A stretch of DNA of 64,000 nt from contig NZ_JAAOIE010000001.1 in assembly GCF_011326755.1 (NCBI RefSeq), forward strand, positions 832,344 to 896,343, in the 5' to 3' direction. The stretch comes from Cochlodiniinecator piscidefendens. Lineage in GTDB: Bacteria; Pseudomonadota; Alphaproteobacteria; Rhodobacterales; Rhodobacteraceae. This document shows positions 54,724 through 57,716 of the stretch, piece after piece. Position numbers and translations under genes: made by a program. How positions within the stretch are numbered: position 1 is the stretch's first letter; each line of letters begins with the position of its first letter. A model generated the notes under the pieces. It was given only the letters and a program-made list of their open reading frames with translations, had not been told where the DNA came from and searched no databases.

Positions 54724-55224
54724 CTATTCGTCCTCTTCTCCGTCAAGATAGATTGATGCATCAGCGTCTGGATCAAAATCATCATCTTCGTCCAACCCAG
54801 CGAACATTTCATCGTCGTAGGTTTCAGGGTTCCAGATTTCAAAGGTGTCCAACTTACCCGCAAAAAACGCATTGCCATCTAGGCCGATTTTTTCGCGAAG
54901 CTTTGCGGGCAACACAAGACGCCCCGTATCATCTACAGATGTTGTTGTGGCTTGTGTTGAATAAAGGGTTTGCAGCGCTTTACGTTTCTTGGATCCGCGC
55001 GGCATTTTTAGAATGCGGCGTTCTACGTCCAAAATCGCTTCGATTGTAAAGCATTCTAAGTGACGACGGTTTTTCCCGCCGTAGACAATAACCAACTCTG
55101 GTTGTTTGCCTGTTTCCCAATTGGGATCCCCTGCCTCCAACACACGGCGAAACGAAGCCGGAATCGACATCCGACCTTTCGTATCCACCTTGTTGAGGCT
55201 TTCGCCCCGGAAGCTGCGAACCAC
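54724..55224 (-). CDS. mraZ: Division/cell wall cluster transcriptional regulator MraZ
   Basis: A 166-residue AbrB-fold DNA-binding protein with two MraZ/SpoVT-like repeats. The first is F-R-G-E-S-L-N-K-V-D-T-K-G-R-M-S-I-P-A and the second D-D-T-G-R-L-V-L-P-A-K-L-R-E; an acidic tail follows. In Escherichia coli MraZ represses its own cluster. The start is GTG 55224, with AAGGAG eight bases upstream. It heads the dcw cluster and is preceded by a long leader holding an UpsM-like RNA and a terminator. Confidence 0.95.
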   Translation of the reverse strand: MVRSFRGESLNKVDTKGRMSIPASFRRVLEAGDPNWETGKQPELVIVYGGKNRRHLECFTIEAILDVERRILKMPRGSKKRKALQTLYSTQATTTSVDDTGRLVLPAKLREKIGLDGNAFFAGKLDTFEIWNPETYDDEMFAGLDEDDDFDPDADASIYLDGEEDE

Positions 55225-55259
55225 GGTTGGCTCCTTAATGTTGCCTCATTTCGTTCCCC

Positions 55260-55306
55260 AAAAAAGGAAACGGCGGGTTGAGCCGCTGCCACTGCTCAAT
55301 CCGCCG
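55260..55306 (-). terminator. Rho-independent terminator inside the mraZ leader
   Basis: On the minus strand a 13-bp stem (55271-55283 with 55294-55306, one G-T wobble) and a 10-nt loop are followed by TTTCCTTTTTT. It lies 36 bases before the mraZ start, so most transcripts that begin further upstream should stop here and only readthrough would express the dcw cluster. Confidence 0.85.
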
Positions 55307-55478
55307 CCCTCGTCCCGTTACCGGGTATGTCCGACTGCACGCGCCACCTGGGGGGATGTCTGCTCGCTCGCGCGCCGGATCTCTTAATTCGATAAAAGCG
55401 GGGCCTGTATGAAACCTGACTTTGGTATTTTGTTTGGGGTTCTTGTTGCTGCCCCTGCGACCCGTCTTATCGTGTAAC
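55260..55478 (-). ncRNA. UpsM-like sRNA in the 5' leader of mraZ
   Basis: In Rhodobacter sphaeroides the dcw cluster is preceded by a long leader that ends early at an intrinsic terminator and yields the abundant sRNA UpsM. The same layout is seen here: a GC-rich block of about 200 bases, bounded upstream by AT-rich DNA and downstream by the terminator. Long-range pairing supports a folded RNA: CGATAA near the 5' end (55472-55467) with TTATCG (55395-55390), and GGGGC with GCCCC inside it. The exact 5' end is not determined; no strong promoter is obvious by eye. The homology is by position and architecture, not by alignment. Confidence 0.6.
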
Positions 55479-55785
55479 TAGGGATGCCATGGGAATTCAT
55501 GGTAATCAAGAAAAATCTGCACAGAACCGACACATCATATTGTTTTCAATTAAGTGCAAAATCAACATTTAGATGTGATAGCCACAATTAAAACACATTT
55601 TATCGCGGAAATTCAACACACGAGACACAACATATAGCGCAAAATTATTTTTCACGAGCATTCCCATGATTTCCCAAAAAATACTCAATTCCGCGAGACA
55701 GAGGCCAAATTACCACATGAACTCCAACCAACTTAGCTCAATACAACCACTAAACACCCCGGAAATTTGATTCGAACGGGGTAAA
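55479..55785. other. AT-rich intergenic stretch without a gene
   Basis: Between the UpsM-like RNA and the mrp terminator the DNA is AT-rich and has no convincing open frame. It should contain the promoter of the mraZ leader. A weak CACCCCG...CGGGGT hairpin (about 55755-55782) is the only structure I see, and it lies next to the mrp terminator. Confidence 0.5.
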
Positions 55786-55818
55786 ATAGAAAAGAGGCGC
55801 GAATATTCACGCCTCTCC
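55786..55818 (-). terminator. Rho-independent terminator of mrp
   Basis: AGAGGCG (55793-55799) pairs with CGCCTCT (55810-55816) around a GAATATTC-containing loop that is itself palindromic. On the minus strand a T-rich run (TTTTCTATTTT) follows. It lies 33 bases after the mrp stop. Confidence 0.85.
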
Positions 55819-55850
55819 CATAAATTCCCACAGCATCCTAAAACGTGAAG

Positions 55851-56948: not shown

Positions 56949-57094
56949 GGCTTTTCCCCATCTTGTTCGATGGCATTTCTTTAGGGCTTTTAACCAAAGC
57001 GCAAGGCCCGTAACGCCATTATGTGACAATGCCAAGACAATAGGTCAGAATTACGTATGCATTTTCTGCATAGCGGCATTGACGCGTTCAGGGA

Positions 57095-57122
57095 TTGTGC
57101 AATCGCAGCAACTCCCTATTTT
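57095..57122 (+). promoter_or_regulatory. Tentative promoter of the DUF1127-CcsR locus
   Basis: TTGTGC (57095-57100), 16 bases and TATTTT (57117-57122) lie about 55 bases before the DUF1127 start. In Rhodobacter sphaeroides the equivalent locus is driven by RpoH-type sigma factors; whether this element fits them cannot be judged by eye. A TATGCA/TGCATA inverted repeat lies upstream at 57057-57073. Confidence 0.25.
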
Positions 57123-57177
57123 CATCCTTGTTAGCGCAATACGGCGTTCACCGAATGAAGATGAGAAAGACGAACCA

Positions 57178-57393
57178 ATGGCAACTGTATCAACAACCCG
57201 CTCCTTTGACGCTGGCATTTTTGACCGCGCAACCACTGCATTTACTTCCGCAACTGAGCGTTTCGCGCAGTATCGGACATTCCGTAAAACAGTGCGTGAA
57301 CTTTCTGAGTTGAGCGGCCGTGAACTTGCTGATCTGGGTATTGCACGTAGCGCAATTCACTCAGTCGCATACGAAGCCACCTACGGCGCATAA
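57178..57393 (+). CDS. DUF1127 (CcaF1-like) small protein
   Basis: A 71-residue basic protein. The C-terminal half is the DUF1127 motif: R-T-V-R-E-L-S-E-L-S-G-R-E-L-A-D-L-G-I-A-R-S-A-I. Small DUF1127 proteins of this kind bind RNA; CcaF1 of Rhodobacter sphaeroides, also 71 residues, is encoded just before the CcsR sRNAs and affects RNA maturation. The same arrangement is present here, since the hairpin array begins within ten bases of the stop. I chose ATG 57178 as it fits the family length; the ribosome-binding site is weak. Confidence 0.9.
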   Translation: MATVSTTRSFDAGIFDRATTAFTSATERFAQYRTFRKTVRELSELSGRELADLGIARSAIHSVAYEATYGA

Positions 57394-57399
57394 GAATTT

Positions 57400-57466
57400 T
57401 TCACTGCGCTTTCCTCCCTTAGCGCACTGAAAAGCGGTCGCATCGCTCCTCCCTGATGCAACCGCG
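57400..57466 (+). ncRNA. CcsR-like double-hairpin unit A
   Basis: Two hairpins. The first pairs TGCGCT with AGCGCA (with an outer TCA/TGA beyond a C-C mismatch) around a TTCCTCCCT-containing loop. The second pairs GCGGT-C-GCATC (57434-57444) with GATGC-A-ACCGC (57455-57465) around CTCCTCCCT (57446-57454). Motif-to-motif distance is 35 bases. The loops resemble the anti-Shine-Dalgarno end of 16S rRNA. Confidence 0.75.
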
Positions 57467-57489
57467 TGACTAGGGCTTTGCCCACCAAC

Positions 57490-57565
57490 ATTGCACCGGA
57501 TCTTCTCCTCCCTTGAAACGGTGCATCAAGCGATAGCGCGCTCCTCCCTTAGCGTTGTCGCTTCT
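57490..57565 (+). ncRNA. CcsR-like double-hairpin unit B
   Basis: TGCACCG (57492-57498) pairs with CGGTGCA (57519-57525) and shows CTCCTCCCT at 57505-57513. The second hairpin pairs AAGCGATAGCG with CGTTGTCGCTT (G-T wobbles allowed) and shows the motif at 57541-57549. The two motifs are 36 bases apart. A motif-free GGGC-TTT-GCCC hairpin (57473-57483) separates units A and B. Confidence 0.75.
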
Positions 57566-57587
57566 CTTTCTGGACTTCGGTCCGACG

Positions 57588-57666
57588 ATGTTTGTCTCTT
57601 TTCTCCTCCCTTAGGAGATGAACATTGAAAGCGCATCTTTTTCTCCTCCCTGATTGGAGATGCGCA
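57588..57666 (+). ncRNA. CcsR-like double-hairpin unit C
   Basis: GTTTGTCTCTT (57590-57600) pairs over 11 bp, including wobbles, with AGGAGATGAAC (57613-57623), with CTCCTCCCT at 57603-57611 in the loop. The second hairpin pairs GCGCATCT (57631-57638) with AGATGCGC (57658-57665), motif at 57643-57651. The motifs are 40 bases apart. A motif-free UUCG-tetraloop hairpin (57571-57584) separates units B and C. Confidence 0.75.
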
Positions 57667-57675
57667 GCAAAAGAA

Positions 57676-57712
57676 CGGCGACTCCCCTCCTCCCTGGGGT
57701 CGCCGTTTTTTT
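57676..57712 (+). terminator. Terminator hairpin of the CcsR-like array, also carrying the loop motif
   Basis: CGGCGAC (57676-57682) pairs with GTCGCCG (57699-57705), extended by CCC/GGG, and a run of seven T follows. The loop again contains CTCCTCCCT (57687-57695). It is thus both the seventh motif hairpin and the end of the transcript, five bases before the stop of the convergent AsnC gene. Confidence 0.9.
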
Positions 57713-57716
57713 ATGT

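Follow-up and report, generated by a model that had tools for sequence, protein, structure and literature searches.

A ccaF1–CcsR-type array of seven anti-Shine–Dalgarno hairpins behind a DUF1127 gene, with its promoter block and predicted target sites

The window, that is the whole 64-kb stretch of DNA that was analysed, contains a small DUF1127 gene followed at once by a dense run of hairpins with a common loop. The question raised by this locus is whether the run belongs to a known class of small RNA, how much of its plan is kept in related genomes, and which messages its loops may address. The original prediction was that it matches the CcaF1–CcsR1-4 locus of Rhodobacter sphaeroides, that its loops could pair with Shine–Dalgarno (SD) sites, and that a count of seven loops with a motif inside the terminator is a noteworthy variant. 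As set out below, the first two of these claims are supported, and the seven-loop count as a noteworthy variant is not.

The hairpin array and its identity

The array is co-directional with the DUF1127 gene, the stop codon of which sits 4 nt before hairpin 1 (Table 1). The encoded protein is equal in length to R. sphaeroides CcaF1, which has 71 residues (PMC10253847) and has been described as affecting the maturation and half-life of CcsR RNAs (PMC10253847, PMC8307010). Neighbouring genes encode a divergent Mrp/NUBPL-type ATPase, an Lrp/AsnC regulator and a LysE-type transporter.

Folding of positions 57391-57716 (326 nt) recovers the seven consecutive hairpins expected after the stop codon, together with the two motif-free hairpins foreseen between the pairs, GGGC-UUU-GCCC and CGGAC-UUCG-GUCCG. 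The energy of this fold is -134.1 kcal/mol, whereas 100 shuffles average -84.7 (sd 5.2), which gives a z of -9.4. The word CTCCTCCCT starts on the + strand at 57446, 57505, 57541, 57603, 57643 and 57687 (words spanning 57446-57695), and these six are its only matches on either strand of the window, where shuffles gave a mean of 0.15 and a maximum of 2. In hairpin 1 the variant word TTCCTCCCT begins at 57411. Six exact words and a divergent first one had been predicted, as had the steps between motif starts across the seven hairpins (35, 59, 36, 62, 40 and 44), and both agree with the motif positions. Across the genome (3.70 Mb, 21 contigs) the CTCCTCCCT 9-mer occurs 11 times, six of them in the array. 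UCCUCCC is present in all seven loops; the full word CCUCCUCCC is found in hairpin 7 only, hairpins 1–6 having G or T at the first place and hairpin 1 departing at the second place as well. Among the 619 family hairpins read, which include the seven of this locus, 527 carry full CCUCCUCCC.

Table 1. Features of the locus and of the neighbouring mraZ region, in window coordinates
Feature	Position	Strand	Basis
mraZ	54724-55224	-	NCBIfam MraZ above cut-off
Upstream TGCA-N6-GCAT box TGCATTTTCTGCAT, exact; candidate LysR/LsrB-type site	57058..57071	+	sequence, NfeR1 form
Putative core promoter: ATTG 57094-57097, 17 nt, RpoH-like -10 CCTATTT 57115-57121	57094..57121	+	sequence
Second TGCA-N6-GCAT-like box TGCAATCGCAGCAA, 1 mismatch, within -35/-10 spacer	57098..57111	+	box survey
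DUF1127 gene, 71 aa, CcaF1-like	57178..57393	+	Pfam PF06568, E 3.5e-11
Hairpin 1, loop UUUCCUCCCU	57398..57433	+	fold, hairpin extraction
Hairpin 2, loop CUCCUCCCU; unit 1 = hairpins 1 and 2	57434..57465	+	motif scan, fold, hairpin extraction
Spacer hairpin GGGC-UUU-GCCC, without motif	57473..57483	+	fold, linker analysis
Hairpin 3, CUCCUCCCU	57492..57525	+	motif scan, fold (centroid), hairpin extraction
Hairpin 4, CUCCUCCCU; unit 2 = hairpins 3 and 4	57528..57563	+	motif scan, fold, hairpin extraction
Spacer hairpin, UUCG tetraloop, without motif	57571..57584	+	fold, linker analysis
Hairpin 5, CUCCUCCCU	57586..57627	+	motif scan, fold; within Rfam ar14 match
Hairpin 6, CUCCUCCCU; unit 3 = hairpins 5 and 6	57631..57665	+	motif scan, fold; within Rfam CcsR1 match
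Hairpin 7, loop CCUCCUCCCU, intrinsic-terminator-like, running into T7 at 57706-57712	57669..57712	+	sequence, fold, hairpin extraction

A covariance-model search of 2.6 kb gave matches to the Rfam families ar14 (RF02344; 57584-57711, 50.4 bits against a gathering score of 58.8, E 1.3e-7) and CcsR1 (RF02791; 57624-57711, 32.7 bits against 65.3, E 1.6e-5). The proposed relation was thus found by this route, but both scores lie below gathering, and at gathering scores no Rfam family was reached. By profile the locus is related to CcsR1 and would fall outside the membership of the Rfam CcsR1 model itself. Published cuckoo hairpins have CCUCCUCCC anti-SD loops on variable stems, with a two-stem-loop version, RS0680a, in R. 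sphaeroides (PMC3927594). Here adjacent hairpins carry a loop word of this type (the core in seven of seven, the full word in hairpin 7), the stems differ in sequence yet pair, and the DUF1127 gene lies immediately upstream. Together with the PF06568 assignment and the two sub-threshold Rfam matches, these features identify the locus, as judged from its sequence, as a ccaF1–CcsR (CIN1, cuckoo RNA) locus and a member of a published class of small RNA.

The R. sphaeroides small RNA UpsM is described as deriving from the mraZ/dcw 5' UTR (PMC7866481, PMC8625941). Ahead of the mraZ gene here there are about 600 nt without an assigned gene (55225-55850, - strand), where a relative of UpsM may lie; an Rfam search of 55225-55850 gave no match up to E 1. 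A terminator-like hairpin at 55819-55790 probably belongs to the upstream Mrp gene.

Loop number, spacing and stems in related genomes

The DUF1127 protein was compared with 120 genomes, each from a different genus of the family and its own genome among them. Matches at E 1e-6 were found in 95, and in each of these the 700 nt that follow the stop codon of the best match were read (three stretches were shorter, at contig ends). At least two copies of TCCTCCC occur in 87 of these 95 DUF1127-selected loci, with counts from 0 to 15. Eight loops are commonest (16 loci); six are present in 12 loci, seven in three, one in four and none in four, the 700-nt limit clipping the longest arrays, two of which hold 16 when read slightly further. 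Higher loop-word counts include 13 in Mameliella alba, 16 in Limimaricola pyoseonensis and 15 in Paracoccus laeviglucosivorans. Seven loops are unremarkable for the family, and the survey leads us to reject the seven-loop array as a special variant.

With a stricter triple-motif scan 40 of these 120 genomes matched, and one matched the reversed control pattern. A loose pair pattern matched 56 of 61 genomes, but its reverse matched 27 of 61, and it is not taken as a count of arrays. Several matches elsewhere in the genome collection (Firmicutes, Planctomycetes, Streptomyces and others) are evenly spaced and look like tandem repeats; the survey counts make no use of that search.

Several loci depart from the usual arrangement. 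In Devosia (L007, L014, L015, L023, L041, L052, L059, L088, L092, L101 and L118) two three-loop clusters lie about 300-450 nt apart, an arrangement that differs from the long arrays of Rhodobacterales. One genome (G013) has two DUF1127-linked arrays at separate places (C1:709252-709549 and C1:4127686-4127995). Seven DUF1127 homologues (L181, L188, L213, L223, L224, L230 and L242) are followed by 420 nt in which no exact TCCTCCC occurs, and may be paralogues or cases of array loss. At L177 and at G051 C4:691717-692219 successive units and their spacers are near-identical, which suggests recent duplication of units as a route by which loop number changes.

The close pairing of hairpins is a family-wide rule. 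In 86 arrays the gaps alternate, with medians of 39-42 for odd and 56-65 for even gaps, and short and non-short gaps alternate 336 times, where permutation of the gaps inside each locus gives 222 (sd 9). Short linkers (n=320) have a median length of 3 nt and are A-rich. Long linkers of at least 14 nt (160 of 195) fold at a mean of -10.9 kcal/mol against -7.0 when shuffled, while the fraction folding at -2 kcal/mol or below differs little (0.92 vs 0.86); linkers from one array are not mutually independent in these figures. Small inter-pair hairpins are also found in relatives, and the spacer hairpins of the window belong to a recurrent plan in which a pair of anti-SD hairpins is followed by single-stranded sequence, in many cases by a small hairpin without the motif, and then by the next pair. 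By analogy with R. sphaeroides, the spacers may serve to separate processed small RNAs.

Stem pairing was assessed on 619 motif hairpins from 92 loci; as these were picked by their motif, the numbers test the stems and not the loops. For 606 of the 613 hairpins with a partner, the true arms pair better than the mean within-locus swap, and at the present locus each hairpin's own arms (-13.5 to -22.8 kcal/mol) beat all six swaps. Among hairpins of one locus the 17-nt arms share a mean identity of 50% (5') and 41% (3'). When 57 hairpins of relatives are set in one register, covariation is 0.431, against 0.228 (sd 0.020) when shuffled and 0.17-0.293 when slid; two-sided changes occur at 11 of 11 pairs, a figure that shuffles approach (10.9), and in the fixed-register count 61% of cells pair, the remainder being shifted. 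RNAalifold gave no consensus structure on a plain alignment of the same 57 hairpins, in our view because many of them are shifted in register, and the arm swaps and the fixed-register pair count were used after this result. Evidence on the loop comes from the protein-picked loci, where TCCTCCC is the top 7-mer and is the word repeated in 87 of 95. Selection on both loop identity and stem pairing, as originally proposed, is upheld by the k-mer count, the arm swaps and the covariation; varying loops over stems that do not co-vary, the pattern that would speak against it, is not what the related genomes display.

These data bear on the notion that the hairpins only stabilize the 3' end, or form an expanding repeat, with no function in trans. 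The wide differences in loop number among genera and the nearly identical units of some arrays (L177, G051) are in keeping with such a notion. Against it, the mean identity of arms within one locus is no more than 41-50%, and yet they pair and co-vary, the two-hairpin spacing is kept across the family and the promoter block described below is kept too, and we regard it as very improbable. A source of trans-acting anti-SD RNAs is the preferred reading of the array.

The promoter block and the matched Shine–Dalgarno class

Upstream of the DUF1127 gene the sequence suggests an RpoH-type core promoter, from which transcription would start near 57128. R. sphaeroides ccaF1 has a RpoHI/RpoHII promoter (PMC10253847), and the spacing here is one base shorter than in the S. 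meliloti RpoH1 consensus CTTGAA-N16-CCTATAT (PMC8844928). The upstream TGCA-N6-GCAT box would lie at about -70 to -57 from this putative start. At NfeR1 of S. meliloti the LsrB site has the form TGCA-N6-GCAT and lies at -72 to -60, and LsrB activates both NfeR1 and AbcR1 (PMC10746234).

The block is conserved with the arrays. Among the 85 array loci that are readable upstream and nine non-array loci, TTGTGCANNYGCAGCA is present in 67 and two respectively (shuffled 0), TGCATRGCNGCATTG in 57 and two, and an exact TGCA-N6-GCAT in 69 and three (0.3% of shuffles). Within one mismatch TGCA-N6-GCAT is found in 85/85 array loci, 4/9 non-array loci and 7.6% of shuffles, and 75/85 array loci have two or more such boxes. 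When 71 loci are aligned on TTGTGCA, 66 of the sites lie 39-40 bp before the downstream box. TGCA-N5-GCAT is nearly as common as the N6 form (61/85 vs 69/85), because the upstream block holds both spacings. TTG-N17 with an RpoH-like -10 occurs in 33/85 array loci against a shuffled mean of 0.8. Of 30 loci inspected, 23 have an Mrp gene beside the block, and the block is also kept where no Mrp gene adjoins it (L155, L158, L160, L162 and L176).

The regulator acting here is probably a LysR-type protein, LsrB-like at best. The AbcR1-type LsrB/VtlR consensus GCAT-N3-TG-N3-T is absent from the promoter of this locus and occurs, on either strand, in 12/85 array loci. CTGC-N3-GCAG is present upstream in 52/95 loci and in none of the downstream stretches; PhaR boxes are described as TGC-rich (PMC10888616, PMC12542648), and PhaR is a possible regulator of the promoter. 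The LysR-type reading is preferred because both the form and the position of the box match NfeR1.

The loop word UCCUCCC is the complement of GGGAGGA, which agrees with the anti-SD loop of the original prediction. In this genome there are 50 GGGAGGA sites that lie 2-12 nt ahead of an ATG, against six for the reversed control, and 45 such AGGAGGA sites, against seven for theirs. For GGGAGGA, 49 of the 50 sites were fetched, the one omitted being the reverse of a motif copy, and the 49 include two on the reverse strand of the array itself; for AGGAGGA, 41 stretches covering 44 of the 45 sites were used, with one open reading frame read in each. Frames of at least 60 aa follow 34 GGGAGGA and 29 AGGAGGA sites. 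Solute-binding families (counted as Pfam DctP, TctC, SBP_bac_1/3, Peripla_BP_4/6 and OpuAC) make up 15 of the 34 and three of the 29 (one-sided Fisher p 0.003), and with other transport proteins added the figures are 18/34 and 5/29 (p 0.003).

Conservation of the site was followed at orthologues, taking the 30 best-scoring loci per gene with the own genome included. A Fer2/Fer2_2 protein, the small subunit of a molybdenum hydroxylase (matched in 54/61 genomes), has GGGAGGA before 24 and GGGAGG before 26 of the 30 best loci, and a Peripla_BP_6 binding protein (38/61 genomes) has GGGAGGA before 26 of 30. The control coaD, which has AGGAGGA here and is matched in 59/61 genomes, has AGGAGG at 7/30 and GGGAGGA at 1/30 of its best loci, a single control gene being few; its label is confirmed by NCBIfam (189 bits, cut-off 103). 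The hydroxylase gene (L256) was considered as CoxS, which no NCBIfam model above cut-off bore out, and the binding protein (L270) as UrtA, for which NCBIfam gave 59 bits against 493; both are named by Pfam family. A plasmid search as a distant control for L270 yielded two rhizobial records only, and the comparison is confined to alphaproteobacteria.

Association of the site with the array across genomes is only a trend. GGGAGG precedes the molybdenum-hydroxylase gene in 27/33 loci with a detected array and 9/15 without (48 loci, p about 0.11), and the Peripla_BP_6 gene in 20/21 and 8/11 (32 loci, p about 0.11); some genomes counted as lacking an array may carry one behind a diverged DUF1127 gene. 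As GGGAGG is also found in genomes without a detected array, its conservation may reflect a use in translation or by other anti-SD small RNAs.

The SD classes also bear on whether the loops act as a global decoy, binding any strong SD or mimicking the 16S rRNA 3' end and so damping translation generally. CCUCC, which forms the core of the 16S tail, is part of the loop; the many loops per transcript (0-15 by locus) would suit a dosage role, and GGGAGGA is widespread, with its 50 sites before ATG against six for the reversed pattern. One exact 16S 3'-end pattern had no match in the genome, and an assumed 16S tail was used for comparison of duplex energies. On the 34 GGGAGGA sites the loop reaches -15.7 kcal/mol and the tail -11.7, an edge of about 4 kcal/mol; on the 29 AGGAGGA sites both give -12.6 and there is no edge. 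UCCUCCC differs from the assumed tail by the extra C, and the loop gains over that tail on GGGAGGA only, which speaks against a general decoy, as do the enrichment of solute-binding proteins behind GGGAGGA and the defined targets described for R. sphaeroides CcsR and S. meliloti NfeR1 (PMC8307010, PMC10746234). A general decoy is unlikely, and pairing with a matched class of SD site remains the preferred reading.

It could further be argued that the loops mainly titrate the DUF1127 protein, or Hfq, in the way that CsrB acts on CsrA, with mRNA pairing secondary. Such a role would suit the many repeats of an invariant loop on variable stems behind the gene for an RNA-binding protein, and CcaF1 is described as acting on CcsR maturation and half-life (PMC10253847, PMC8307010). 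But the loop word is the exact complement of an SD class that this family conserves, and NfeR1, an RNA with the same loop that is described as independent of Hfq, acts by pairing to silence mRNA (PMC10746234). We consider protein titration distinctly unlikely as the main role, and favour pairing of the loops with mRNA.

One further gene with a GGGAGGA site encodes a LuxR-type protein (L298), and flhR is reportedly a target of CcsR. An identification of L298 as flhR was not borne out: no orthologue was found in the 60 other genomes at E 1e-25, and NCBIfam gave no model above cut-off. In G000 C21:82500-92500 (L340) the LuxR-type gene is divergent from a lyase gene (below the NCBIfam cut-off) and the gene for a malate–CoA ligase beta subunit (above it), gene types which can belong to C1 assimilation, and it may still play the part of FlhR.

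Proposed function and comparison with known systems

The reading that we prefer, at a probability of roughly 0.7, is that the locus is a ccaF1–CcsR operon, the single transcript of which is cut into two-hairpin anti-SD small RNAs that silence uptake genes under stress. The transcript would run from the start near 57128 to hairpin 7 and encode the DUF1127 protein, its 3' part comprising three two-hairpin units and a terminator hairpin that also bears the loop word. Transcription is probably set by the RpoH-type promoter together with a LysR-type regulator on the two TGCA-N6-GCAT boxes. If processing follows that of R. sphaeroides, RNase E would cut the precursor with the aid of the DUF1127 protein, the cuts probably falling in single-stranded sequence that flanks the small spacer hairpins and releasing the two-hairpin RNAs. 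The UCCUCCC seed of each loop may then pair with GGGAGGA-type SD sites and block ribosome binding. The messages predicted to be silenced are largely those for periplasmic solute-binding proteins (ABC, TRAP and TTT), and uptake would be throttled under stress.

More tentatively, and with less confidence than doubt, this picture may extend to the family as a whole. The ccaF1–CcsR arrays would form a conserved stress brake on import, in which a LysR-type (LsrB-like) regulator and an RpoH-type promoter drive two-loop anti-SD arrays of variable length, spacer hairpins guide cleavage, and UCCUCCC with GGGAGGA (before solute-binding and some other genes) forms a matched regulatory code distinct from SD sites that only bind ribosomes.

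The locus does not stand out in its family; it is a real and well-conserved member of a published class. What is added is the promoter block and the matched SD class, which can both be put to the test; no description of either was found in the passages covered, which come from papers other than the primary ones on cuckoo RNA (2015), CcsR (2015) and CcaF1 (2021). Three pieces that have been studied separately are joined, namely the Rhodobacter DUF1127–CcsR operon, the rhizobial NfeR1/AbcR anti-SD RNAs with their LysR-type activator, and the GGGAGGA sites before uptake genes. The comparison also points to likely targets that could be assayed in a laboratory strain, namely binding proteins of the ABC, TRAP and TTT types and the molybdenum-hydroxylase subunit.

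Among known systems, CsrB/RsmZ-type RNAs similarly present one loop word in many copies on a single transcript; their loops bind protein through GGA words, whereas the word here is the complement of an SD site. AbcR1 and AbcR2 share anti-SD motifs, transport and metabolic mRNAs as targets, and LsrB or RpoH1 control (PMC8844928); they differ in having two distinct anti-SD motifs per RNA, and the available parts of that literature do not describe repeated identical loops or a DUF1127 gene for them. Alpha-r14/NfeR1 of Sinorhizobium meliloti (RF02344) is closer, with multiple hairpins, identical anti-SD loops, diverging stems and an upstream LysR-type TGCA-N6-GCAT site. Its three CCUCCUCCC hairpins silence ntrB and two periplasmic-component mRNAs (PMC10746234), the latter being the kind of target predicted here. 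NfeR1 is, however, one RNA of 115 nt that has three loops and is transcribed from a sigma-70 promoter (PMC10746234, PMC8844928), whereas the present locus is a long array that follows a protein gene. The R. sphaeroides ccaF1–CcsR1-4 locus (RF02791) has four small RNAs, RS0680a having two stem-loops (PMC3927594), whereas the present one has seven loops as three pairs and a terminator, lacks the first C of CCUCCUCCC in six of the seven, and scores below gathering in Rfam. Nevertheless, the two loci share a 71-aa DUF1127 gene, a co-directional 3' array of paired anti-SD-loop hairpins, a terminator at its end and, as far as the promoter proposed here holds, RpoH-type control.
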